Below are positions 1,116 through 12,144 of a stretch of DNA of 12,358 nt, piece after piece. Source of the DNA: an uncultured Oscillibacter sp. (GTDB lineage: Bacteria > Bacillota > Clostridia > Oscillospirales > Oscillospiraceae); assembly GCA_905236835.1 (NCBI GenBank), contig CAJOQY010000344.1, positions 1 to 12,358 on the forward strand. The letters run 5' to 3'. The position numbers and the translations under genes were made by a program. Below the pieces are notes generated by a model, which was not told where the DNA came from, made no database searches, and was given only the letters and a program-made list of their open reading frames with translations. Positions within the stretch are counted from its first letter, which is position 1. Each line of letters starts with the position of its first letter.

Positions 1116-2432
1116 ATGAAAAAGACGGAAAAAGGCATGGTCAAAAGATGGCTGGCGAGCCTGCTGATGGTATGCGTCATGGCCGGGTGTTTCGCCGCGT
1201 GGCCGGGCGCGATGGCGCGGGCGGTCACGCCGGTGAGCGTGGTGGGACGCGATGACGGAATCTGGCTGTTCCCGCTGGACAAGAAGTTTTATAACCAGTT
1301 CACGGACTGGGCGGGCTGTCCCGGACACGGGGAATGCCCTTTCGGGGACGGCTGTGACAACAAAGACCCGGCTGACATCTGGGCGCATGACGCGAATCCC
1401 AAGGGACACACCGGCGTGGATATTTCGGGCGAGGGAATCTGGGACGCGCCTGTTATGGCCGCCGCGGACGGCGTGGCCTATCGCCGGGGATACTGGAACG
1501 GCGATCGCGGTTATTACGTCGTGATCGAGCATAAAATCACCGGCAGCAAGTCTTATTATTCCGTCTATCAGCATCTTAACGGCTTTAATATCAATGACGG
1601 GCAGTCCGTCAAGGCGGGCGACGTGATCGGATACGCCGGGAACAGCGGCAATGTCAAAGCGCATTTGCATTTCATGATCCTGCTGGGCGACGCCGGAGCC
1701 GGAGCGGACGGCGTGAAATATGAGATGTGGAAATACGAACTCGGCGAAGGCGAAACTTGGTGGATACGGGATCCCGGTTACGGCAAAAACGGACGCCTTG
1801 TGACCAATCCTTCTATTTACAGCCCGGCGGGCGTTGCCGGCGGATTCTACAACAGCATTCCCACCCATGGCGGATCCGTGCGCTATACGTTTGACAAATC
1901 ACAGGTTGACATCGGGGAGCATACATATCCGCCTTACGCGGCGACCATCAAAGAGGGGGATTATTTCCTCATCAATGATCGGGCGATCTTCCTGACCAAC
2001 CGCACGGACGGCAACGGCGGCAACGTGGAAGCGATGGGCAATATCAAGAGCGCGTCACAGCGGTTCACCGTGAAAAAAGCGTCCGGAAGCGCTTATACGT
2101 TCCAGTCCAAGCGCAACGGTTTGATGTTAAACGTCTACACGGCGGGCAACAGCAAAGCGTATGACAACGTGACCGTATGGGAGGCCACCGGCCACGCCAC
2201 ACAGTCATGGATTCTGGAAGAGAAAGACGGACGCTATATCATTCATCCCTCGGACAATCCCTCTCTGGCGTTGACAAAGACGGACGATGTCACCAAACAC
2301 AGCGCGCGGAATGTAAGATTAGAACCCTGCACCGGCGCGGACAATCAGTTATGGACCCTGCTCAAAATCCCGAATTTAAACAATATCGCCAAATCAGTAG
2401 GAGAAAAATGGAAACAAACTTACGGTCTCTAA
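1116..2432 (+). CDS. Secreted M23-family metallopeptidase with C-terminal ricin-type lectin domain
   Basis: This is a predicted zinc endopeptidase acting on peptidoglycan cross-links outside the membrane (438 aa). The N-terminus has a basic stretch and a hydrophobic core. C25 in the run VMAGC fits a loose lipobox, but cleavage by signal peptidase I after AMA (34) or ARA (36) is also possible. The M23 domain covers about residues 50-235: H98 and D102 in GHTGVD, H153 in YQHL, and H183/H185 in AHLHF are the expected metal ligands and catalytic histidines, so it looks active. Three cysteines (68, 74, 80) before H98 could form disulphides. Residues about 275-415 form a ricin B-like beta-trefoil with QRF, QSW and QLW repeats, which usually binds carbohydrate. 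AAAGGA lies 12 nt before the ATG, somewhat far. The gene stands alone, divergent from rnfC and convergent with dctP. Its biological target is unknown. Confidence 0.88.
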   Translation: MKKTEKGMVKRWLASLLMVCVMAGCFAAWPGAMARAVTPVSVVGRDDGIWLFPLDKKFYNQFTDWAGCPGHGECPFGDGCDNKDPADIWAHDANPKGHTGVDISGEGIWDAPVMAAADGVAYRRGYWNGDRGYYVVIEHKITGSKSYYSVYQHLNGFNINDGQSVKAGDVIGYAGNSGNVKAHLHFMILLGDAGAGADGVKYEMWKYELGEGETWWIRDPGYGKNGRLVTNPSIYSPAGVAGGFYNSIPTHGGSVRYTFDKSQVDIGEHTYPPYAATIKEGDYFLINDRAIFLTNRTDGNGGNVEAMGNIKSASQRFTVKKASGSAYTFQSKRNGLMLNVYTAGNSKAYDNVTVWEATGHATQSWILEEKDGRYIIHPSDNPSLALTKTDDVTKHSARNVRLEPCTGADNQLWTLLKIPNLNNIAKSVGEKWKQTYGL

Positions 2433-2518: not shown

Positions 2519-3529
2519 TTATTTGAAATACGCCTGATAAATATTCTCTTGTATGGATTGTTCGATGGCGTCATATACGCTTTGAGAGGCTTCGCGGATT
2601 TCGTCGCGCGTTTGAGGATCTAATATAAAAATCTCCGTGCCGGTGGCCTCAATCGCGGCGATCCGGTCTTTGATTCGTTCGTCATACGCCTCGCGGGCGT
2701 ATTCCGTCGCGATCTCCGCCGCTTCGGACATCACAGCCTGTTCATCTTCCGATAAACGCTGAAAGAAATCGTCATTCACAATCAGCGTGATTAAATGCGG
2801 CAGATGATTGGTTTCTATAATATAATCCTGCTGTTCATACAGCCGGTTGGATACGATGACTTCATAAGGGTTTTCCTGCGCGTCAATCGTATGCTGTTGT
2901 AATCCGACATAGACTTCCGAGAACGTCATAGGCGTGGGATTCGCGCCGAGCGCGGTCCAGAACGCCAAGTGAAACGGATTTTCCATCGTCCGGATTTTCT
3001 GTCCCCTGAAATCGGCGATACTCCGGACGGCTTTATTCGTACTCATGACGCGGAAACCCTGATCCGCGATCCCCAATAAATGATAACCGCCGTTTGTATA
3101 TACGTCATTGATCAGGGAATAAAACTCCGGATCGTCCATTTTGTCCCGGCAGTCCTCCAGAGAATCAAACACGCACGGCAGGTCAAACACGGATAAATCC
3201 GGCATAAACGCCACTTGCGGCGCGGTGTTCTGCACGATAAACGGAATATCGCCGTCCGCGCAGGTTTCCAGTAATTCCCGATCCCCGCCGAGCAGAGAAT
3301 TGGCGTAAACCTGAATTTTCATCTTTTCGCCGCTCAGACGATAAACTTCCTCCGCGAATTTTTCCGCGAAAATCTGCGTGACGGTATCTTCCGGGCTGGC
3401 CGTCGCCAGCGGCCACGCGTAACGCTGTTCGCCGGAATCGCCGCAGCCGGTCAGACATAATATCATGAAAAGCGTTAAAACGCCGCGTATGAAAAACTTT
3501 TCGCTTTTTCCGCGCGTTTTCACCATCAT
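2519..3529 (-). CDS. dctP: TRAP transporter solute-binding lipoprotein, DctP family
   Basis: This is the extracytoplasmic receptor that delivers an organic acid to the DctQM membrane unit (336 aa, typical length). The N-terminus is a basic region, a hydrophobic core and lipobox LTGC, so C29 is probably lipidated and the protein membrane-anchored. The family core is clear: a GFRVMSTNK segment at 158-166, then GQKIRTMENP at 176-185, where R180 is the likely arginine that clamps the substrate carboxylate, and DAQENP at 216-221. ATG at 3529 or at 3526 could start translation; both follow the purine-rich AAAGGGGGG. It is last in the minus-strand run, after dctM by 86 bp and an AT-rich gap, and ends before the shared terminator. 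The substrate is not readable from sequence; linkage to aroE and aroD suggests quinate, shikimate or a related hydroaromatic acid. Confidence 0.9.
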   Translation of the reverse strand: MMVKTRGKSEKFFIRGVLTLFMILCLTGCGDSGEQRYAWPLATASPEDTVTQIFAEKFAEEVYRLSGEKMKIQVYANSLLGGDRELLETCADGDIPFIVQNTAPQVAFMPDLSVFDLPCVFDSLEDCRDKMDDPEFYSLINDVYTNGGYHLLGIADQGFRVMSTNKAVRSIADFRGQKIRTMENPFHLAFWTALGANPTPMTFSEVYVGLQQHTIDAQENPYEVIVSNRLYEQQDYIIETNHLPHLITLIVNDDFFQRLSEDEQAVMSEAAEIATEYAREAYDERIKDRIAAIEATGTEIFILDPQTRDEIREASQSVYDAIEQSIQENIYQAYFK

Positions 3530-3538
3530 TCGCCCCCC

Positions 3539-3569
3539 TTTATATTATTATATTATATTATATTAATTT
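3539..3569. repeat. AT-only simple-sequence run upstream of dctP
   Basis: Thirty-one consecutive A/T bases made mainly of a TATTA/TTATA-type pentamer repeat. It lies between dctM and the dctP ribosome binding site. On the minus strand it ends in AATATAAAGG and then G residues, much like the run before the MFS start. It may act as an unstructured mRNA segment that helps ribosome loading. Confidence 0.6.
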
Positions 3570-3570
3570 C

Positions 3571-3640
3571 TTTTATCACATCACAAGCGAAAGCGCGTAT
3601 AAATTTTATTAATTTTTATAACAGCGCAAGCGAAAGCGCG
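3571..3640. repeat. Tandem duplication of the dctM 3' end
   Basis: Unit 3571-3597 repeats unit 3614-3640 at a period of 43 bp with 24 of 27 bases identical, including a 14-bp exact match CAAGCGAAAGCGCG. The right unit encodes the last residues of DctM (PALSLALL and stop). The left unit lies beyond the stop codon, and a 2-nt difference after it puts it out of register. Confidence 0.75.
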
Positions 3641-4905
3641 GGTATAAAAGTAATCAACAACAGGGCGAACAGGAAAAAGACGATCATAGGCGCGGCCTTT
3701 TTGACAAGAGCCATAATCGGGACATCCGAAAGCGCGCTCGCGACGAATAAATTCACGCCAATCGGCGGCGTAACAAAGCCAATCGCCAGATTGACCACCA
3801 TCACAACGCCAAACTGTATGGGATTCATGCCGATTCCCTTGACAATCGGCAGTAAAATCGGCGTCAGAATCAAAATCGCCGGCGTGGTATCCATGACCAT
3901 TCCCACAATCAGCAGGAAAATATTAATCACGATCAAAATTACAACCGGATTCCGGAAGTTGTCTAAAATAAACGCGCTGACGGTCTGGGGAACCTGCATC
4001 AGCGTCAAGACCCGTGAAAACGCCGTGGACGCCGCTAATACAAATAAAATCGGCGTGTATGTCTTGACCGCCTCCACGAAAATTTTCCATAAATCTTTCG
4101 GCGTAATCGTCCGGTAGATAAACAAACTGACGGCGGCGGCGTAAAATACGGAAATCACAGCCGCTTCCGTGGGCGACGCCACGCCCGAATATATACAGCC
4201 TAATATAATCACGGGGCTTAATAACGCGAAAAAACTTTCTTTTAAGACATTTAATAATCCTTTTTGCCGTAACGAATCCACTTCCGCGCGGATTTTATTC
4301 TTATCCTCCCCGTATCGGATACAATGATAAACCGCGTAGAGCATTAATAACGCGCCGATCATAAGGCCGGGAATAATCCCCGCGAGAAACAGCGCGCTGA
4401 CGGATTCCCCCGACGCCATCCCGTACATGATAAACGGAATGCTGGGCGGAATAATCACGCCCAATCCGCCCGCGACGGCGACAATCGCCGTGCTGAATTC
4501 TTTATCATAGCCCAAATGGACCAATACGGGAATCGTCATGCTTCCCACGGCGGCGACCGTCGCCGGGGCGGAGCCGGAAATCGCGCCGTAAAACAAACAG
4601 GTCACAATCACGGCGCATGGCATCCCGGCGGTCAATCCGCCCAGAAAATACGAAAAGACATCAAATATTTTCTTGGAAATCCCGCCTTTGGCCATAATAA
4701 TCCCGGATAAGACGAACATCGGGACGGCCAGCAGCGGAAAACTGTCCAGACCGCCAAACATGGAACGGATCAAATATTTCGGCCCGACCGTGAAAGACGC
4801 GTCAAACAGTCCGGGCAGTACGGACGTAATCCCCAATGAAATCGAAACCGGAATCGCGATGATCAGCGCGACGGCAAAGAAAATAAATAATACAACAAGA
4901 GGCAT
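3616..4905 (-). CDS. dctM: TRAP transporter large permease subunit, DctM family
   Basis: This is the 12-or-so-helix channel subunit of a TRAP transporter, which drives uptake with an ion gradient (429 aa, normal length). It is hydrophobic throughout and carries the family signatures GAISGSAPATVAAVG and GVIIPPSIPFIMYG, and near the C-terminus a GFVTPPIGVNLFVA segment. The only long hydrophilic stretch is the cytoplasmic loop around RYGEDKNKIRAEVDSLRQ. The ATG follows the dctQ stop by 2 bp, with GGAGAAT inside the end of dctQ as ribosome binding site, so the two are translationally coupled. It is followed by dctP on the same strand. The final ten codons have a decayed tandem copy just downstream. 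Function as a TRAP permease is firm; the substrate is inferred only from context. Confidence 0.94.
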   Translation of the reverse strand: MPLVVLFIFFAVALIIAIPVSISLGITSVLPGLFDASFTVGPKYLIRSMFGGLDSFPLLAVPMFVLSGIIMAKGGISKKIFDVFSYFLGGLTAGMPCAVIVTCLFYGAISGSAPATVAAVGSMTIPVLVHLGYDKEFSTAIVAVAGGLGVIIPPSIPFIMYGMASGESVSALFLAGIIPGLMIGALLMLYAVYHCIRYGEDKNKIRAEVDSLRQKGLLNVLKESFFALLSPVIILGCIYSGVASPTEAAVISVFYAAAVSLFIYRTITPKDLWKIFVEAVKTYTPILFVLAASTAFSRVLTLMQVPQTVSAFILDNFRNPVVILIVINIFLLIVGMVMDTTPAILILTPILLPIVKGIGMNPIQFGVVMVVNLAIGFVTPPIGVNLFVASALSDVPIMALVKKAAPMIVFFLFALLLITFIPALSLALL

Positions 4906-4907
4906 GA

Positions 4908-5459
4908 TTAATTCTCCGAATTCGCTTCAATATAAGATTCCGGCGTATTGCGTTCGGGGTGGGCGGGGTCAAACACGTTTTCGCCTCTGGCGACGCGGAA
5001 TTCGATCATCCATCTTTGGAGAATCCGGAACGCCACCAGCAGGAACGAAAACAGCGGCGCGGCCTGTATATAATACATGGGAATCCCGCAGGCCGGGCTG
5101 ACCTGTCCGCTCTTCACCGCCGACATCATATAGGCATACGCGAACGGGATCATATAAGTGAAAAAAGCAAGCTCAAACGTATGATTCACGACTTTGAATA
5201 CGGCTTTCCCCCGGCGCGGAAACAACGCCACAAACTGTTCGATTTTAATCGACAAACAGCGTTTTGTGCAATAACTGACGCTTAAAAATCCGCTCCAGAT
5301 AAACAAATACCGCGTCAGTTCCTCTGTCCAAGACAGCGATTTATGAACCGCGTAACGGGAAAACACCTGAACGCCCATGATTAACGTCATGGCGATTAAT
5401 AATATTACTAATATAAATTCCTCAAGATTATGATTCAGCCAATGCAGATATTTTTTCAT
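4908..5459 (-). CDS. dctQ: TRAP transporter small permease subunit, DctQ family
   Basis: This is the four-helix small membrane subunit that pairs with DctM (183 aa). Hydrophobic segments lie near residues 14-36, 48-62, 88-112 and 126-148. The family pattern VFSRYAVHKSLSWTEELTRYLFIW is split across positions about 31-55 and is typical, with the WTEEL core and following aromatic-rich helix. After the last helix there is a longer than usual hydrophilic tail of about 35 residues ending ESYIEANSEN. The ATG is preceded by a strong GGAAGGAGGGG. The gene sits 132 bp after aroD; that gap holds a palindromic repeat that could act as a terminator or attenuator, so the TRAP genes may be expressed at a lower level or somewhat separately from the aro genes. 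Confidence 0.92.
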   Translation of the reverse strand: MKKYLHWLNHNLEEFILVILLIAMTLIMGVQVFSRYAVHKSLSWTEELTRYLFIWSGFLSVSYCTKRCLSIKIEQFVALFPRRGKAVFKVVNHTFELAFFTYMIPFAYAYMMSAVKSGQVSPACGIPMYYIQAAPLFSFLLVAFRILQRWMIEFRVARGENVFDPAHPERNTPESYIEANSEN

Positions 5460-5591: not shown

Positions 5592-6362
5592 TTATAACGC
5601 CTTATGCAGTAAATTTAAAACCACGCTCAAATCTTCCACGCCCATCTGTCCCGGCGCGGAGGCTTTTTTCGCCGCGCCGAATGTCAGCGCGGAGCCGAAT
5701 ACTTCGCCGCATAACCGGCTGATCACGCCCGTTCCCGCCATGGACATCGTAATAATAGGCCGGTCCGCGTATTCCGACGCCATTTCCTCCGTGGCCGACA
5801 GCAGGGTTAAAACATCTTTTTTATCGCGCGGCATGACGGCGATTTTGGGAATATCCGCGTCCATATTTTGCATTTTGCGCAGACGCCCGACAATATCGTC
5901 TTTGTCCGGGGTCTTGTCGAAATCATGATTCGACGCGACGACTTTCACGCCCGCCGCGTGCGCTTCCCGGATAATCCGGCTGACGACTTCATCCCCGGTG
6001 AAGATTTCCACGTCCACCAGATCGGCCAGACCGCTTTTCGCCGCCCGGATGTTTAATTCCGCGTAAGCGTCCGGCTCTATCGACTTTTCGCCGCCTTCTT
6101 TGGATGTCCGGAACGTGACCAGAATCGGCAGATCGCCCAATTCCGCCCGGAGCGCTTTCAGCGCGTCCAAAAACAGATCCGGATCAAATACGTTCTCGAA
6201 CCAGTCCACGCGCCATTCCACAACGTCCACGGGCAGGGATTTTAACGCTTTCGCCTCTTCCAGAATGTTTTCTTTCGTCACGCCGACGATGGGAACGCAA
6301 ATCTTGGGGATTCCCTCGCCAATCACGGTATTTCTGACTTTGACGGTTTTGATTTCTTTCAT
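5592..6362 (-). CDS. aroD: Type I 3-dehydroquinate dehydratase
   Basis: The cytosolic enzyme converts 3-dehydroquinate to 3-dehydroshikimate through a Schiff base (256 aa, normal for type I). All key positions are visible: E49 and R51 in VVEWRVDWF, E89 in FRTSKEGGE, H146 in SNHDF, the Schiff-base K173 in IPKIAVMP, the arginine of GVISRLCGEVFGS, and SAPGQ near the C-terminus. It is strikingly close to the enterobacterial AroD across its length. The ATG at 6362 is chosen over the upstream in-frame ATG at 6422 because AGGAGGG sits 6 nt before it and family members begin at this point. It lies between the MFS gene and dctQ. Other aromatic biosynthesis genes are absent nearby, so a role in quinate breakdown is likelier than in biosynthesis, although the same enzyme could serve both. 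Confidence 0.96.
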   Translation of the reverse strand: MKEIKTVKVRNTVIGEGIPKICVPIVGVTKENILEEAKALKSLPVDVVEWRVDWFENVFDPDLFLDALKALRAELGDLPILVTFRTSKEGGEKSIEPDAYAELNIRAAKSGLADLVDVEIFTGDEVVSRIIREAHAAGVKVVASNHDFDKTPDKDDIVGRLRKMQNMDADIPKIAVMPRDKKDVLTLLSATEEMASEYADRPIITMSMAGTGVISRLCGEVFGSALTFGAAKKASAPGQMGVEDLSVVLNLLHKAL

Positions 6363-6423
6363 GAACGGCCCTCCTGAAATTTTGATAAAATAAAATAAAA
6401 TCAAGCGTGAAATAATCAGCAAA

Positions 6424-6455
6424 CGCCTCCCCGGACGCGTGGGAACGGGGAGGCG
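6424..6455 (-). terminator. GC-rich hairpin after the MFS gene
   Basis: CGCCTCCCCG (6424-6433) and CGGGGAGGCG (6446-6455) form a perfect 10-bp stem around a 12-nt loop, 11 bp past the MFS stop codon. On the minus strand only a weak TTTGCTGATTATTTC follows, so full termination is doubtful. It may be a leaky terminator or a 3' stabilising hairpin that sets relative levels of MFS and aroD mRNA. On the plus strand seven T's follow 6 nt later, but no plus-strand gene ends here. Confidence 0.5.
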
Positions 6456-6466
6456 GAGAGATTTTT

Positions 6467-7681
6467 TTACGCTTGGACTTCCGCGTCCTGAAGCATTTTA
6501 TTATAATTAAAATTCACAAACAGCCCCAGCGCGACGCCAATGCCGGTTAAAATAATATTCATGACCATCACGCCGGAAGGGGTCATGCTGGACGCCGCCG
6601 TTAAAATCGTATAATTGCACAGGGACGACGCGATCATGACCAGCGCGGTAACGGTGCCTTTGATTTTCGGGAACAGCATATTGCAAACGGACGTGGCGAT
6701 TTGCAGCAATCCGCCCGCGCCGGCCCATCCGACGATGAACGCCCCCGCCATGCACAAAGCCTGACTGGGGATCAACAGCACGATGATCAAAGTCACCAGA
6801 CAGATCACGGGATACGCGACGATGAAACGCACGTCTTTGATCTTACGGGTCAGAAACGCCGTGACGATCAGGGCTAAAATCGTGCCGATAGAATAGAAAC
6901 TCTGCATAATGGACGGATTTTCCCATCCGACAACGGAGCGGGCGTAGTTCTGGGCGCAGTTCAGCCATAACTGGAATGTACCGGTACAGGTGAAGCCGAT
7001 TAAAATCATGGCGATAGAACCCAGTGAAAAACGGGTGTGCTTGAGGCTCTCGATCAGGCCCTCTTTTTTGGCGCCGCCGCCCTTGTCCGTATCCGGCAGG
7101 GGGAAAATAATAATCAACGCCAGCAGGATAATATACGCGACGCCGCAAATATAGAACAACGGATTATACGAAGTCATTCCGGCGGCTGTGGTCGTCACGG
7201 TGACGCCGAGGAAGAACGGCAGGAGCATTTGCGAAATGGCGATAAAGAATTTAATGCCCATGGTCGCCACGCCCGGCGCGGAATAGATAATCTCCGCCAC
7301 AGCCGGATAAATGCCCGTGTCCAAGAACGAGTTGGCCAGACCGCCGACAATCGCGCAGATATACGCCACCTGATAGCCGCCGTTGGGGCCGAGATTGAAC
7401 GCGAACGCGAGGCCGATTAAATAAATCGCGTAAGACGCGCTTCCGATCATGACGGATACGCGGCGGCCCAGTTTATCCGACAGCGGACCGGCGAAGGGGA
7501 GCGCGATCAGGCGGCCAAGTCCGAGGGCGGCGGAAATCGCCGTGATTGCCATTTCCTCCACGCCCCAGCTTGCCGCCAGCGCGGATTTAATCACGGCCTG
7601 CCCCAATACGGAACAGCCGACGCCGTGAATAAAATAATTTAAATACAGCACAAGCGCGCTGGGAAGATATTTTTTGTTCAC
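6467..7681 (-). CDS. MFS transporter, candidate quinate/shikimate transporter (YdiM/YdiN-like context)
   Basis: This is a major facilitator permease of 404 aa with about 12 hydrophobic segments. MFS motif A is GPLSDKLGRR at 65-74, after the second helix. A central hydrophilic loop near residues 200-212 (PDTDKGGGAKKEG) divides the two six-helix halves. The first codon is GTG, preceded by AAGGTGG about 10 nt upstream; there is no better in-frame start. It sits between the YdiB-like dehydrogenase and aroD. In E. coli the MFS genes ydiM and ydiN neighbour ydiB and aroD in the same way, so uptake of quinate or shikimate is a reasonable inference. Export or exchange of a pathway product is an alternative, since a TRAP importer follows in the same run. 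The 67-bp gap to the upstream aroE gene is almost entirely A/T. Confidence 0.88.
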   Translation of the reverse strand: MNKKYLPSALVLYLNYFIHGVGCSVLGQAVIKSALAASWGVEEMAITAISAALGLGRLIALPFAGPLSDKLGRRVSVMIGSASYAIYLIGLAFAFNLGPNGGYQVAYICAIVGGLANSFLDTGIYPAVAEIIYSAPGVATMGIKFFIAISQMLLPFFLGVTVTTTAAGMTSYNPLFYICGVAYIILLALIIIFPLPDTDKGGGAKKEGLIESLKHTRFSLGSIAMILIGFTCTGTFQLWLNCAQNYARSVVGWENPSIMQSFYSIGTILALIVTAFLTRKIKDVRFIVAYPVICLVTLIIVLLIPSQALCMAGAFIVGWAGAGGLLQIATSVCNMLFPKIKGTVTALVMIASSLCNYTILTAASSMTPSGVMVMNIILTGIGVALGLFVNFNYNKMLQDAEVQA

Positions 7682-7696
7682 AGTTGGGATTCCACC

Positions 7697-7753
7697 TTTA
7701 TATTTTTTATAATAATTTATAATAATTTTATATAATATTTATAATATATTAAT
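7697..7753. repeat. 57-bp A/T-only tract with a 10-bp tandem repeat, aroE-MFS junction
   Basis: Every base from 7697 to 7753 is A or T, including the aroE stop codon. Within it ATAATAATTT is perfectly repeated in tandem (7709-7718, 7719-7728). On the minus strand the tract leads into AATATAAAGGTGG, the MFS ribosome binding site. It is far more AT-rich than the genes on either side. Confidence 0.7.
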
Positions 7754-8627
7754 CGTCGTAGTTAATATTTAACACTTTCTTCATGTGTTCAATGGGCATG
7801 GGCTTGCCGGTCCATAACTCAAACGCCGCGGCGCCTTGGAAAAGCATCATGCCGAGACCGTTCATGGTCTTGCAGCCGACTTCTTTCGCCATCTTGCGCA
7901 TTTTCGTGCATAACGGGGAATACGGCACGTCCACGACGATCAAATCCGGGCGGAAGAAAGACTTGTCCGGCACGACGGAGACATCTTCCAGCGGCTTCAT
8001 GCCCGCGCCTGTGCCGTTGACGAAAATATAACTGGAATCCATTTCCTCTTTTAATTTTTTCGTGTCGGCCAAATCCGTCAACGTCGCCTTGCAATTGGTC
8101 TGCTCGTTGATTTTTCTCACGGTTTCCTCACCGTTGGCGTAGAACTGGTCTTTGATGTTAAAAATCGAGATTTCGGCCACGCCGTCGAGAGCGGCCTGAA
8201 TCTCAATCGCCGTCGCCGCGCCGCCGCAGCCCGCGATGGTCATTTTTTTGCCGATCGGGTCAATGTTGTTATCTTTCAGCGCGCTCATAAAGCCGATGCC
8301 GTCCGTGACATAGCCCGTCAGATGTCCGTTGTCATTGACAATCGTGTTGACGGAGCCGGTCAGTTTCGACGCCGGGGACAGTTCGTCAAGATATTTGCCC
8401 ACGAGCGTCTTATTGGGCATGGAGACGTTGGAGCCGCGCATTTTCAGCGTGCGGATCGCTTTGACGGCGTCCTCGATTTCCTTGTCGTCGATTTCAAAGG
8501 CAAGATACGCGTAATCAATGCCCAGCGCGGCGAAAGCCTCATTTTGCATGGCGGGCGAGCTGGAATGGCGGATCGGATAAGCCATCAGGCCGATAAGCTC
8601 CGTATGCCCCGTGATTCTTTCAGACAT
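7749..8627 (-). CDS. aroE: Quinate/shikimate dehydrogenase, YdiB-like AroE family
   Basis: The enzyme interconverts shikimate and 3-dehydroshikimate, and in the YdiB subgroup also quinate and 3-dehydroquinate (292 aa). The opening ELIGLMAYPIRHSSSP matches YdiB closely; S22 and S24 should bind the substrate carboxylate. K73 in NVSMPNK and D109 in TDGIG are the catalytic pair. The dinucleotide fold begins at GCGGAATA (133-140). The cofactor loop reads FNIKDQF: D160 and F162 correspond to the residues YdiB uses for NAD, and the arginines of the NADP-specific AroE loop are missing, so NAD and an oxidative role are likely. Valine 107 replaces the usual Asn before TD. The ATG at 8627 is preferred over 8747, because the upstream extension resembles no family member and overlaps the leader. 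Its ribosome binding site (GGGGA) is weak. It is the first gene of the minus-strand run. Confidence 0.93.
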   Translation of the reverse strand: MSERITGHTELIGLMAYPIRHSSSPAMQNEAFAALGIDYAYLAFEIDDKEIEDAVKAIRTLKMRGSNVSMPNKTLVGKYLDELSPASKLTGSVNTIVNDNGHLTGYVTDGIGFMSALKDNNIDPIGKKMTIAGCGGAATAIEIQAALDGVAEISIFNIKDQFYANGEETVRKINEQTNCKATLTDLADTKKLKEEMDSSYIFVNGTGAGMKPLEDVSVVPDKSFFRPDLIVVDVPYSPLCTKMRKMAKEVGCKTMNGLGMMLFQGAAAFELWTGKPMPIEHMKKVLNINYDD

Positions 8628-8691
8628 ATTTTTTCCCCATTTCTTCAATAATTTCCCAATAGACGATATGAAACAAAGGCCGCGAACACCC

Positions 8692-8708
8692 CATGACGCT
8701 CTGTCATG
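8692..8708 (-). promoter_or_regulatory. Hairpin in the aroE leader
   Basis: CATGAC (8692-8697) and GTCATG (8703-8708) form a perfect 6-bp stem with a 5-nt loop within the roughly 157-nt predicted leader of aroE. No U-run follows. It may be an RNA hairpin or a protein-binding dyad; nothing known was recognised. Together with the promoters and dyads below it covers what can be seen in the gene-free stretch 8628-9011. Confidence 0.35.
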
Positions 8709-8790
8709 ATTTCGCCGTGATTGATTCGGATGATTATCGTTCGTCAAAATACATAAACGCCGTCACAGTTTGTTCATAAAGCCTTTTATC

Positions 8791-8799
8791 ATTATAACA
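8791..8799 (-). promoter_or_regulatory. Extended -10 promoter of the aroE operon
   Basis: On the minus strand TGTTATAAT gives a perfect TATAAT with a TG extension. No good -35 hexamer is found 16-18 bp upstream, which suits an activator-dependent promoter under the divergent LysR regulator. Transcription would begin near 8785. Confidence 0.55.
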
Positions 8800-8856
8800 A
8801 ACGGATTGGATAAATCTAATGCCTTTCATAAATGATAATAATGCTTTTTGCGTATC

Positions 8857-8885
8857 AATCAAACGGATATTGACGCGCTTTGATT
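8857..8885. promoter_or_regulatory. Candidate LysR-type regulator binding dyad
   Basis: AATCAAA (8857-8863) and TTTGATT (8879-8885) are a perfect 7-bp inverted repeat with a 15-bp spacer, in the divergent region between aroE and the lysR-type gene. It is centred about 86 bp upstream of the predicted aroE start, a plausible place for a LysR-type recognition site. The assignment is inferred from position and symmetry. Confidence 0.42.
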
Positions 8886-8946
8886 CCAAGACAGGCGGAT
8901 TAAAATTAAAATTTCATGATAAATTTAATTATAGATATTCTCGCTG

Positions 8947-8975
8947 TTTCTTTTGATCAAAAATTATGCTATAAT
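8947..8975 (+). promoter_or_regulatory. Promoter of the lysR-type gene with overlapping palindrome
   Basis: TGCTATAAT (8967-8975) is an extended -10 with perfect TATAAT; the -35 region TTTCTT (8947-8952) is poor. The perfect 12-bp palindrome TTTTGATCAAAA (8951-8962) lies between the two, sharing the TTTGAT half-site of the dyad at 8857-8885. A protein bound there would block polymerase, so autorepression is likely. Confidence 0.55.
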
Positions 8976-9011
8976 AGCGAATATCACACAGGGGAGGATT
9001 GATATAATATT

Positions 9012-9917
9012 ATGACGCTGAATCAATTGAAATATTTCCAGACCGTCGCCCGGTTTGAGAATTTCCATCTCGCGGCTTCGGAATTATATATTTCCCAACC
9101 TTCCCTGAGCAGGTCTATCGCCGCGCTGGAAAAAGAACTGGGCGTGATTTTGTTTGAAAAGCGCGGACGCGGAATCAGACTGACGAAAAGCGGATTTTTA
9201 TTTCTGGAATATGTGGACAGGATTCTAAGCGAATATGAGATCGCCGTGTATAAAATGCGGGAACTGGCCAATTCCGGGGGCCGGATTGATGTCGGCTATG
9301 TGTTCCCGCTGGCGAATCAGTTCATTCCGCGCATGGTCCGGAAATTTCTGTCGCTGGAAGAAAATAAAAATATCACGTTCAGTTTTTTTCAGGACTGGAC
9401 GTTTTCAATCTTGGATGAGATCAAAAAAAGCCATCTTGACGTGGGATTCTGCGCCTATGTCGAACAGGAAGAGGAACTGGAATTTTTTCCGGTGGTGAAT
9501 CAGGAACTGGTTTTCATCGCGCCGTTACATTCCCCGCTGGCGGAATCTTCGGAAGCGTCTATTATGGAACTGACGAAATATCCCGTGATTGGCTATCATC
9601 GCCTCTCGTGGCTGGGCAGTTACACCCGGAAATTATATCGCCGTCTCGGCATCCAGCCGGAAATCGTCTGTGAATGCTCGGACGAAAACGCCATACAAGC
9701 CATGGTCAAAGACGGTTTCGGAATCGCGCTGATTACCAATGTACAGACGCTGGACGAAAACCACGTCCGGATTTTAAAAATCTCGGATATGGCGCTGTCC
9801 CATCAGATTTATATGGTCTGGATGAAAAATCATTATCATATCCCGGCGATTAACCGCTTTGTCAAATTCATGAAAAATCAGACGGATGCGGGATTAAATT
9901 TCAATCCTGAATCTTAA
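9012..9917 (+). CDS. LysR-type transcriptional regulator, likely controlling the quinate/shikimate genes
   Basis: This is a DNA-binding regulator of 301 aa, normal for the family. Residues about 3-62 form the winged helix-turn-helix, with AASELYISQPSLSRSIAALE as the recognisable HTH core and LGVILFEKRGRGIRLTKSG as the wing. From about residue 90 onward is the two-lobed effector-binding domain, with a GFGIALITN segment near the end. GGGGAGGA lies about 13 nt before the ATG, a long spacing. The gene is divergent from the aroE-led run and upstream of the reductase on the same strand, the standard arrangement for a LysR protein controlling its neighbours. In Listeria a LysR regulator (QuiR) responds to shikimate beside similar genes, from memory, which makes shikimate or quinate a sensible effector here. 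The effector cannot be read directly. Confidence 0.9.
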   Translation: MTLNQLKYFQTVARFENFHLAASELYISQPSLSRSIAALEKELGVILFEKRGRGIRLTKSGFLFLEYVDRILSEYEIAVYKMRELANSGGRIDVGYVFPLANQFIPRMVRKFLSLEENKNITFSFFQDWTFSILDEIKKSHLDVGFCAYVEQEEELEFFPVVNQELVFIAPLHSPLAESSEASIMELTKYPVIGYHRLSWLGSYTRKLYRRLGIQPEIVCECSDENAIQAMVKDGFGIALITNVQTLDENHVRILKISDMALSHQIYMVWMKNHYHIPAINRFVKFMKNQTDAGLNFNPES

Positions 9918-9945
9918 TCAATACATTCAGGCTATCAATCTTGCG

Positions 9946-9974
9946 GGCGAATGGCATTTTACAATTTCGCCTTT
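9946..9974 (+). terminator. Weak possible terminator after the lysR-type gene
   Basis: GGCGAA (9946-9951) and TTCGCC (9966-9971) can pair over a 14-nt loop, followed by only three T's. It lies 29 nt after the stop codon. The short stem and the lack of a real U-run make efficient termination doubtful, so read-through into the reductase gene is possible. Confidence 0.25.
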
Positions 9975-10024
9975 GTGGGTTATGATGAAAAAAGCGGGAT
10001 TTTTCCCCGGAATTTTCAGAATGT

Positions 10025-10054
10025 TTGAACATGAAAATATGAAAATTTTATATT
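10025..10054 (+). promoter_or_regulatory. Promoter of the enoate reductase gene
   Basis: TTGAAC (10025-10030) and TATATT (10049-10054) are separated by 18 bp, with transcription predicted near 10061. This gives the reductase its own promoter rather than relying on read-through from the regulator gene. Confidence 0.45.
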
Positions 10055-10063
10055 TTAATCATA

Positions 10064-10088
10064 TTTCAAATATCCTGAGAATTTGAAA
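10064..10088. promoter_or_regulatory. Candidate operator dyad at the reductase start site
   Basis: TTTCAAAT (10064-10071) and ATTTGAAA (10081-10088) form a perfect 8-bp inverted repeat with a 9-bp spacer. It falls just downstream of the predicted start of transcription. The half-site TTTGAAA is close to the TTTGAT elements of the aroE-lysR region. It could be an operator or an mRNA hairpin. Confidence 0.42.
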
Positions 10089-10140
10089 ATCTAATAAAAA
10101 CGCGAAATTGTGAGGGGTACGAAAGGAGGCATCGGCGGTC

Positions 10141-12144
10141 ATGAAAAACGATTATCCGAAGATTTTTGAACCGTTTACGGTGAAAACCATGACGCTCAGA
10201 AACCGGGTTGTCATGACGCCTATGGGCACCAATTACGGGGAGCCGTCCGGACATATGAGCGCGGGGCATATGAATTATTATAACCTGCGCGCGAAAGGCG
10301 GCGTCGGCCTGATTATCGTGGAAAACGCGAATGTGGATTATCCGCTTGGCTCCAACGGCACCAGCCAGATCCGCATTGACCATGACAGTTATATGCCGCG
10401 CTTTTATGAACTGACGGAAATGCTTCACCAGCAGGGCGCGTGCGTGGCGATTCAGATCAATCACGCCGGCGCTTCCGCGCAGTCCGCGCGAACCGGAATG
10501 CAACCCGCTTCCGCGTCCAATCTGCCGTCGAAAGAGGGCGGCGAAATTCCGCGTCCTCTCGAAAAAGAGGAAATTTATGAAATCGTCAAAAAATACGGAC
10601 AGGCCGCCAAACGCGCCCAGACCGCCGGTTTTGACGCCGTGGAGGTTCATTGCGGACATTCGTATTTAATCAGCCAGTTCCTTTCCCCCACGACGAACAA
10701 ACGCACGGATGAATTTGGCGGCTCCGCCGAAAACCGCGCGCGTTTCGCCCGTCTGGTACTGGAAGAAGTGCGCAAACAGGTCGGACCTTTCTTCCCGATC
10801 TTCGCCCGTATCAGCGCGGATGAGTTCATGGAGGGCGGCAATACATTAGATGACTGTCTGGAATATCTGCAATATTTCCAAGAATTCGTGGACGTAATCG
10901 ACGTATCCGCCGCGCTGAATGGATCGTTGCAATATCAGATTGATAATAATAACTTCCCGGACGGCTGGCGTTCTTATATGGCGCGCGCCGTCAGAGAGCG
11001 TTATAACAAGCCCGTCATGACCGCCGGAAACATCCGAAGTCCCAAAGTCGCCAATGAGATTTTAGAAAAAGGCGACGCGGATTTGATCGGCATGGGACGC
11101 GGTTTAATCGCCGAGCCGAACTGGGTCCGCAAAGTGGAAGCCGGACAGGAAGCCGATCTGCGCAAGTGCATTTCCTGTAACATCGGCTGCGCCGGGAATC
11201 GTATCGGCTCCAACCGTCCGATCCGCTGCACCGTCAATCCGTCCGTCATGTGGGGCGACGATGATTATAAAAAATTAAAAGTCAACAAGCCCTGTAATGT
11301 CGTGATCGTCGGCGGCGGCACGGCGGGACTTGAGGCCGCGTGTACGGCGGCGGAAGTCGGTTGCAATGCCTTTGTGATCGAGGAAAAAGATTATCTCGGC
11401 GGACTGTCCGCGCAGATTTCCCGGATTCCCGATAAAAACCGCCTCGCGGATTTCCCGAATTATTTAATCCGCCGCGCGAAAAAATTAAACAATGTTTATT
11501 TCTTCATGGGCAAGCCCGCGTCCGTTGATTTTATTAAAACTCTCAATCCGGATATTATTATCAATTCCACCGGCTCCCTCCCGGCGTATCCGCCGATCAA
11601 AGGCCTGAAAGAAAATCTCGGCGTCAAAGGCGGCAAATTAATGACCGTCTTACAGATGATTGAGAATTTATCCATCTTCCCGGAGGATATGAAAGGCCAG
11701 AGAGTTTCCATTGTCGGCGGCGGCGCGGTCGGTCTGGATGTTATCGAGTATTTCGCCCCCAGAGGCGCGGATGTGACTGTGATTGAAATGCTCCCCGGCA
11801 TCGCCAACGGGTCCGATCCTATCACAAAAGTCAATATCCATGCCATTATCAAGAAATACGGCGTCCATACGCGTCTGAAAACCGCGTTGCAGGAAGCGAA
11901 ACCGGATTCTTTCATTGTCAAAAATCCTGACGGCTCCATTGAGGAAATCCCGTTTGATTACGGCATGATCTGTATGGGTCTGAAAGCCTATAATCCGATT
12001 CTGGACGAACTCAAAGCCGCGTTTGGCGACACGGCGGAAATCCTGAACATTGGCGACTCTCAGCGCGCGCGCCGTATCATCGACGGGACCAGCGAGGGAC
12101 GCAATATCGTCAAAGTTCTGGAACGCAAGGGCTATTTTGATTAA
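10141..12144 (+). CDS. NADH:flavin oxidoreductase / enoate reductase (FMN, 4Fe-4S, FAD; Old Yellow Enzyme family)
   Basis: This three-part flavoenzyme of 667 aa reduces C=C bonds conjugated to a carbonyl or carboxylate, like 2,4-dienoyl-CoA reductase and clostridial 2-enoate reductases. Residues 1-335 form the FMN TIM barrel: QINHAG at 105-110, then FDAVEVHCGHSYL at 164-176 and LSPTTNKRTDEFGGSAENR after it. Y175 aligns with the active-site tyrosine of FadH; the second FadH residue (His in a GWHE segment) has no counterpart. C343, C346, C350 and C363 hold a 4Fe-4S cluster. Two dinucleotide folds follow: VVIVGGGTAGLEAA (387-400) for FAD and VSIVGGGAVGLD (522-533) for NAD(P)H. AAAGGAGG lies 11 nt before the ATG. 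Next to quinate/shikimate genes, a likely substrate is the enone 3-dehydroshikimate or a derivative, but this is inference. Fe-S content points to an anaerobe. Confidence 0.9.
   Translation: MKNDYPKIFEPFTVKTMTLRNRVVMTPMGTNYGEPSGHMSAGHMNYYNLRAKGGVGLIIVENANVDYPLGSNGTSQIRIDHDSYMPRFYELTEMLHQQGACVAIQINHAGASAQSARTGMQPASASNLPSKEGGEIPRPLEKEEIYEIVKKYGQAAKRAQTAGFDAVEVHCGHSYLISQFLSPTTNKRTDEFGGSAENRARFARLVLEEVRKQVGPFFPIFARISADEFMEGGNTLDDCLEYLQYFQEFVDVIDVSAALNGSLQYQIDNNNFPDGWRSYMARAVRERYNKPVMTAGNIRSPKVANEILEKGDADLIGMGRGLIAEPNWVRKVEAGQEADLRKCISCNIGCAGNRIGSNRPIRCTVNPSVMWGDDDYKKLKVNKPCNVVIVGGGTAGLEAACTAAEVGCNAFVIEEKDYLGGLSAQISRIPDKNRLADFPNYLIRRAKKLNNVYFFMGKPASVDFIKTLNPDIIINSTGSLPAYPPIKGLKENLGVKGGKLMTVLQMIENLSIFPEDMKGQRVSIVGGGAVGLDVIEYFAPRGADVTVIEMLPGIANGSDPITKVNIHAIIKKYGVHTRLKTALQEAKPDSFIVKNPDGSIEEIPFDYGMICMGLKAYNPILDELKAAFGDTAEILNIGDSQRARRIIDGTSEGRNIVKVLERKGYFD

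Follow-up and report, generated by a model that had tools for sequence, protein, structure and literature searches.

Gene content of the locus

The DNA analysed here, referred to as the window, is a contig of 12,358 nucleotides (CAJOQY010000344.1, assembly GCA_905236835.1) from an uncultured Oscillibacter sp. It carries genes that probably form a module for quinate and shikimate, together with a flavin- and iron-sulphur-dependent ene-reductase of the old yellow enzyme (OYE) type. This reductase, which we treat from its sequence as a candidate for reducing the ring C=C bond of 3-dehydroshikimate, belongs to a group of relatives named clade A here. The module genes, all present at full length, and the intergenic region between the two divergent transcription units are as follows.

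2519..3529, minus strand: solute-binding protein DctP of a tripartite ATP-independent periplasmic (TRAP) transporter (PF03480, 237 bits; TIGR00787 over its cut-off)
3616..4905, minus strand: TRAP large permease DctM (PF06808, 355 bits; TIGR00786 over its cut-off)
4908..5459, minus strand: TRAP small permease DctQ (PF04290, 114.5 bits)
5592..6362, minus strand: AroD, type I 3-dehydroquinate dehydratase (PF01487; TIGR01093, 251 bits against a cut-off of 139)
6467..7681, minus strand: transporter of the major facilitator superfamily (MFS), candidate quinate/shikimate importer (PF07690, 76 bits)
7749..8627, minus strand: AroE, YdiB-like shikimate/quinate dehydrogenase (NF001313, 493.9 against a cut-off of 431)
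8628..9011, no strand: divergent AroE/LysR intergenic region, 34% GC
9012..9917, plus strand: LysR-type regulator (PF00126, PF03466)
10141..12144, plus strand: clade A reductase of 667 amino acids, an ene-reductase of OYE/FadH type with flavin mononucleotide (FMN), a 4Fe-4S cluster and flavin adenine dinucleotide (FAD) (PF00724 and Pyr_redox domains)

Profile scans recovered each gene type named in the original prediction, namely a YdiB-like dehydrogenase, an MFS protein, aroD, TRAP genes, a divergent LysR and an FMN/Fe-S/FAD reductase. The span 5592..12144 given there does enclose the genes from AroD to the reductase, whereas the TRAP genes lie outside it at 2519-5459. The Pfam and family scan covered ten proteins of the window, the remaining listed open reading frames (ORFs) overlapping these genes; as had been claimed, neither a further aromatic-pathway gene nor a match to a dehydroshikimate-dehydratase family was found among these ten.

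The AroD translation contains the histidine of SNHDF and the lysine of PKIAVM, which we take to be the catalytic residues. Judging from the sequences, the TTG starts of the AroD and AroE ORFs (6422 and 8747) are probably too early, and the internal methionines at 6362 and 8627 are preferred. AroE narrowly missed the YdiB model NF009390 (337.7 against a cut-off of 349), a failure that does not affect the proposal that it works like YdiB; its best solved relatives are 3tnl (396 bits) and then 3t4e, 1vi2 and 1npd. The MFS protein gave a partial match, far below cut-off, to the aromatic acid/H+ symport model TIGR00895. The nearest solved chains of DctP are the sialic-acid protein SiaP and other DctP proteins, and the substrate of the TRAP system is not indicated by them. 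For LysR, no NCBIfam cut-off was reached among the best 25 of 54 matches.

Family and active site of the reductase

The reductase gene begins 223 bp past LysR, and its product combines an N-terminal OYE barrel with C-terminal FAD/NAD(P)-binding domains, the architecture of the OYE/FadH/trimethylamine dehydrogenase superfamily. Its predicted model (predicted local distance difference test score of 94.2) matches over the full length 2-naphthoyl-CoA reductase, 2,4-dienoyl-CoA reductase and trimethylamine dehydrogenase (CoA, coenzyme A). In 42 aligned reductase sequences the cluster cysteines C343, C346, C350 and C363, the catalytic tyrosine Y175 and H170 are invariant, and H173 is nearly so. We take H170 and H173 to be the ketone-binding pair and Y175 the proton donor, as in ene-reductases; the acyl-CoA reductases 1ps9 and 6qkg carry other residues at the aligned positions of the two histidines. 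A glutamate after a dinucleotide motif is a known sign of reduced nicotinamide adenine dinucleotide (NADH), and E549, which follows the second such motif and is invariant in A1, suggests from the sequence that NADH is the donor.

We then compared 28 clade A reductases with four of a second branch, clade B, and ten others (one clade B member by the tree, L076, was counted among these ten). Polar, Trp or Cys residues were regarded as clade-only when present in 27 or 28 of the 28 clade A proteins, in at most one of the four clade B proteins and in at most two of the ten others. As a result, 32 positions across the whole reductase were obtained, and nine of these, N107, S112, R117, S174, N260, Q266, D268, W276 and R277, are located at strand ends or in the following loops around H170, H173 and Y175. 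Polar clade-only residues on the active-site side would fit a small polyhydroxy acid, and we interpret the nine positions as a likely binding site for a carboxylic acid bearing hydroxyl groups. The Fe-S/FAD domains, through which a pyridine nucleotide would deliver electrons, the enone-type His/His/Tyr set and the added polar residues all agree with the enoate-reductase function originally proposed.

Membership of three named families was rejected. The bile-acid reductase BaiCD, whose substrates are cyclic enones, has the best-scoring NCBIfam model for this protein (NF041087), yet the protein scores 434.9 bits where 825 are required, and no bile-acid gene was present among the scanned neighbours. 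The scores for mycofactocin OYE 2 (TIGR03997, 401 against 793) and bilirubin reductase (NF045599, 346 against 750) are likewise far too low.

Conservation of the linkage to AroE and AroD

A scan of the genome collection gave at least 572 relatives of the reductase, and 80 loci (numbered with the prefix L) were retained. Clade A comprises 46 of them (L019-L061, L064, L072 and L073), while the 34 more distant reductase loci served as control. Among the matches listed, clade A members share at least 49% identity with the window reductase and the next relatives at most 38%. Clade A forms one branch of the midpoint-rooted reductase tree, which was built from 105 proteins of at least 560 amino acids each, shorter or broken copies (from the clade loci, L045, L064 and L072) being left out. 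In L072 (7730-9272, a Paenibacillaceae contig) the reductase gene lies in two overlapping pieces, by a frame change or an assembly error.

Neighbours were counted by tblastn against the fetched DNA, up to 10 kb on each side and less on short contigs, with identity cut-offs (at least 44% for AroE) chosen after the locus maps had been inspected. AroE is present in the flanks of 35 of the 46 clade A loci and of two of the 34 control loci (Fisher p = 1.2e-10, a guide only, since many of the clade loci are from Lachnospiraceae and the loci therefore lack independence). The corresponding numbers are 31/46 against 1/34 for AroD, 29/46 against 2/34 for LysR, 29/46 against 1/34 for MFS and 21/46 against 1/34 for DctM. 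One control locus, L069, has AroE and AroD at 33% and 40%, both below the cut-offs. Linkage of the reductase to AroE and AroD is beyond chance, and a chance neighbourhood was rejected on the locus maps and on these counts; the co-occurrence with aroE-aroD-LysR that the original prediction had suggested searching for is thus real.

In ten of the 46 clade A loci, the reductase and AroE, AroD or both follow one another on the same strand with less than 320 bp between genes:

L039 (Paenibacillus), L052 (Enterococcus), L054 (Megasphaera): OYE-AroE-MFS-AroD
L058: OYE-AroE-AroD
L031 (Faecalicatena): OYE-AroD-MFS-TRAP
L034, L035, L050: LysR-OYE-AroE
L038: OYE-AroE
L048: AroE-OYE

Gene clusters common to at least four of 47 loci (the 46 and the window) are OYE, AroE, LysR, MFS, AroD, the three TRAP genes and a chorismate mutase-shikimate kinase fusion; no dehydroshikimate dehydratase cluster reached four of the 47. 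By record title, linked clade A loci come from Mogibacterium, Erysipelotrichaceae, Clostridium, Paenibacillus, Enterococcus, Megasphaera and Cellulomonas, and Actinomycetota keep the linkage too (L055, L056 and L061, at 49% identity). Counted over whole genomes, an AroE of at least 44% identity is present in 45 of the 46 genomes with clade A, compared with three of 33 control genomes (two control loci share one genome). Among the 11 clade loci without a flanking AroE, nine have a genomic AroE of 46-79%, the genome of L036 has one of 73% and that of L031 one of 32% only.

An even sample across the class contained a clade member in six of 391 genomes, the window's genome included. Six clade genes of this sample lie outside the window's genome, and for five of them AroE is located in the short fetched flank; the sample overlaps the 46 loci, since L113 and L040 are probably one and the same gene. 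A single genome, G224, carries a pair of clade A reductases, L114 and L117, which lie about 5 kb from each other with AroE near each.

Ten of the 46 clade loci, some on short contigs, have neither AroE nor AroD in their flanks. According to the original prediction, a clade located mostly beside genes for unrelated substrates, such as bile acids or cinnamates, would speak against it; this is not what the clade A loci show. In eight of the ten (L030 and L036 excepted) one to three neighbours each were scanned, and no bile-acid or cinnamate gene was found among them, several ORFs having no Pfam match. Four neighbour ORFs without a Pfam match (two in L046, one each in L049 and L032) are possibly spurious. 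The neighbours recognised were:

L037: Mur ligase; TRAP genes also present
L041: glycerate kinase, PRD-type regulator
L042: 3-deoxy-D-arabino-heptulosonate 7-phosphate (DAHP) synthase, prephenate dehydrogenase
L043: TetR, periplasmic binding protein
L046: LacI regulator
L047: CysS, rRNA methylase
L049: DnaX
L072: prolyl oligopeptidase

Behind its module, L057 has unrelated genes, of TelA type and others.

Clade B and its TIM barrel

Clade B, the second branch of the reductase tree, has six members, located in L004/L101, L026 (2222-5977), L040 (15026-18715), L058 (16737-20443), L076 and L089. The fetched loci of all six also hold a YdiB-type AroE and a triose-phosphate isomerase (TIM) barrel resembling Lmo2234; the L040 copy scored 306 bits against Lmo2234 (PDB 2g0w). 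In L124 and L125, clade B-like reductases adjoin AroE, and no barrel was found within their short flanks. Reductases of this superfamily thus appear to have been tied to a YdiB-type AroE twice. Since clade B stands beside the barrel, one locus can contain both a reductase and a possible dehydratase, and the two reactions do not have to exclude each other.

Within clade A (46 loci) the barrel is present only in L026, L040 and L058, which also hold clade B, and L031 has a different one. In L031 (6929-9952) two genes of one cluster, the scanned one being a zinc alcohol dehydrogenase, and a PF01261 TIM barrel precede the reductase, the barrel immediately. The genome of L031 lacks a YdiB-type AroE, so the genes before its reductase may replace AroE. 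The window's genome, which is 71% complete, encodes one PF01261 protein, and this matched neither barrel at E 1e-12.

Host genome and placement of the contig

The contig sits in a genome of 1.74 Mb. Two further genes lie to the left of the module:

left end of the contig, minus strand: rnfC, a cut gene
1116-2432, plus strand: M23 peptidase that carries a ricin-type lectin domain and separates rnfC from the module

The gene order in the window is therefore rnfC, M23 peptidase, DctP, DctM, DctQ, AroD, MFS, AroE, LysR and reductase. Of 36 genus mates, 32 encode a matching RnfC, the best copy per genome being 67-86% identical, so the contig fits the genus of its genome and mis-binning was rejected. 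Compared with L019, an Oscillibacter locus from red deer, the identities are 95% for AroE, 91% for DctQ, 89% for MFS, 77% for the reductase and 56% for LysR; given this uneven divergence, LysR may have been replaced or may evolve fast. A motif scan gave 38 promoter-like sites against 13.0 in shuffles and 10 terminator-like sites against 14.5, and the interpretation makes no use of these counts.

Proposed route and its alternatives

We lean towards the view, built on gene families and neighbourhoods, that these genes form an accessory quinate/shikimate module whose reductase saturates 3-dehydroshikimate or a close derivative as an electron sink. The MFS and TRAP transporters would import hydroaromatic acids. 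By family, the YdiB-like AroE would convert quinate to 3-dehydroquinate or shikimate to 3-dehydroshikimate, and AroD would convert 3-dehydroquinate to 3-dehydroshikimate. Electrons would pass in the reductase from NADH, the likely donor, to FAD, the 4Fe-4S cluster and FMN by the family mechanism, and a hydride would be added across the ring C=C bond of 3-dehydroshikimate or its close derivative. In this step His170 and His173 would hold the ketone oxygen, Tyr175 would donate a proton, and the clade-specific Asn, Gln, Asp and Arg would bind the hydroxyls and the carboxylate. AroE could then reduce the saturated ketone to dihydroshikimate, so that quinate to saturated ketone would be redox-neutral and the final AroE step a sink for one NADH. 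LysR probably answers to shikimate or a neighbouring intermediate.

Besides the linkage and residue pattern of clade A, the YdiB-type AroE in all six clade B loci and the dihydroshikimate formation described for lactic acid bacteria favour this reading. Several observations weigh against it. The closest family models, BaiCD and mycofactocin, are so far under cut-off that the family gives no substrate. The window's own reductase is divergent from the AroE operon, and the absence of AroE and AroD from ten clade loci, the low best AroE (32%) in the genome of L031 and the interdependence of the 46 loci belong here as well. The control genomes are mostly from other taxa, so the contrast with them may be partly taxonomic. 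A tree of 86 AroE proteins places the linked AroE of L040, L045 and L048 outside the main branch; L022 and one copy from L050 group with its outgroups, probably as a reading-frame artefact. The AroE of L040 and L048 are adjoined by the chorismate mutase-shikimate kinase fusion and so may be biosynthetic, and the AroE nearest the L038 reductase is a contig-end fragment unplaced in the tree. In the 36 genus mates no clade A reductase was found: the matches at E 1e-80, which occur in seven of them, are 29-36% identical, and the module has therefore been gained in the window's species or lost from many. Among 11 genus mates whose best AroE was fetched (L101-L111), only one exceeds 44%, and that one stands with a clade B reductase. 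Finally, the window AroE is the sole AroE found in the incomplete genome, which makes a biosynthetic role possible.

This last point leads to the explanation that AroE and AroD are ordinary biosynthetic enzymes and the neighbourhood of the reductase is incidental, which we consider very improbable. It could draw on the kinase fusion (at least 44% identity) near eight of the 46 clade loci (L021, L025, L029, L038, L040, L048, L050 and L057), on weaker kinase-like matches near four more and on the DAHP synthase and prephenate dehydrogenase of L042. The fusion could also reflect shikimate salvage alongside catabolism. Chorismate synthase, however, was likewise not found in the genome, so absence there is uninformative; the genus mates mostly use another form of AroE, at 27-31% identity and beside kinase-like sequence in seven of the 11 (L105-L111). 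In addition, TRAP, MFS and LysR are non-biosynthetic genes and the linkage is preserved across phyla. Even less credible, in our view hardly to be entertained, is that the flavoenzyme works in the oxidative direction and aromatises 3-dehydroshikimate or a derivative. Trimethylamine and histamine dehydrogenases, which oxidise their substrates, are of the same family by fold match, but the protein keeps the enone-binding His/His/Tyr set typical of ene-reductases, and oxidation would be an unlikely way for a fermenter to dispose of electrons.

Two other possibilities seem unlikely to about the same degree. The reductase might help in the use of chlorogenate, saturating the cinnamate side of caffeoylquinate, the form in which quinate would arrive in the gut, in the manner of a 2-enoate reductase while AroE and AroD take the quinate half. 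2-Enoate and cinnamate reductases do belong to its superfamily, and in L048 (8735-14360) the reductase is followed by genes for two electron-transfer flavoprotein (ETF) subunits and an AMP-dependent ligase, all called by Pfam, and for two acyl-CoA dehydrogenases, of which one was called by Pfam and the other by clustering. This set resembles a hydroxycinnamoyl-CoA reductase operon and gives a hint of either a CoA-dependent continuation in one lineage or hydroxycinnamate reduction. On the other hand, no esterase recurs among the clusters common to at least four of the 47 loci, and the clade-only residues on the active-site side are polar. Alternatively, the reductase could act after 3-dehydroshikimate has been dehydrated or isomerised, giving for instance 3,4-dihydroxycyclohexanecarboxylate, with the dehydratase encoded elsewhere. 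The clade B loci with barrel and AroE, as well as the barrel directly before the L031 reductase, are in its favour; yet the restriction of the barrel in clade A to the three loci with clade B and to the different one of L031 speaks against it, as does the dissimilarity of the PF01261 protein in the incomplete genome of the window.

Saturation of 3-dehydroshikimate or a close derivative is the reading that we favour, and a wider version of it is offered tentatively, as one that we would sooner doubt than believe. Clade A would be a dedicated 3-dehydroshikimate ene-reductase, the hitherto unassigned enzyme of a non-aromatising quinate reduction, spread over Bacillota, Actinomycetota and Zophobihabitans, which we take to be a gammaproteobacterium. 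Clade B with the Lmo2234-like barrel and its own AroE would form another reductive branch, longer than that of clade A and leading for instance to dihydroxycyclohexanecarboxylate, and quinate and shikimate would serve gut bacteria as terminal electron acceptors via two related, separately recruited reductases.

Relation to known systems and significance

FadH/2,4-dienoyl-CoA and 2-naphthoyl-CoA reductases are likewise FMN/4Fe-4S/FAD ene-reductases, but they share 26% identity with the window reductase in the structural alignment, act on CoA thioesters and lack its histidine pair at 170 and 173. The aerobic protocatechuate route (QuiC, QsuB, Qa-4) has the dehydrogenase and dehydroquinase steps to 3-dehydroshikimate in common with the proposed one, whereas it needs a dehydratase, and none was recognised in the window. 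The Listeria qui loci contain a LysR, AroE and AroD set and may also contain an NADH oxidoreductase gene. The nearest solved AroE, 3tnl, is from Listeria, and we take QuiC2 to be Lmo2234, the relative of the clade B barrel. By the title of Xue 2020, as it stands in the reference list of PMC9324987, QuiC2 of Listeria is a dehydroshikimate dehydratase, an enzyme not recognised in the window.

The proposed chemistry has itself been described in lactic acid bacteria, in work that reportedly dates from 1957 and the 1970s. Passages of PMC13204703 and PMC7427622, both citing others, describe the conversion of quinate to shikimate and on to dihydroshikimate with quinate as hydrogen acceptor, and they name no gene for the ring reduction. 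Nor was such a gene for 3-dehydroshikimate assigned in the titles and abstract openings of the open-licence literature surveyed. What is new is therefore not the reductive chemistry; it is a reductase clade without a named substrate in the titles and abstracts surveyed, joined here to known enzyme families and a known phenotype. On the whole, the original interpretation is partly supported, the part on a quinate/shikimate module being backed by the AroE and AroD families and by the linkage of the clade over many lineages.

Quinate and shikimate are common dietary plant acids, and quinate makes up one half of the chlorogenate molecule. Should 3-dehydroshikimate prove to be reduced by clade A, the long-known phenotype of lactic acid bacteria would gain a candidate gene, and a flavoenzyme family that is now annotated merely as "FAD-dependent oxidoreductase" would gain a substrate. 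Gut bacteria that divert quinate and shikimate from aromatisation would then be predictable by sequence.

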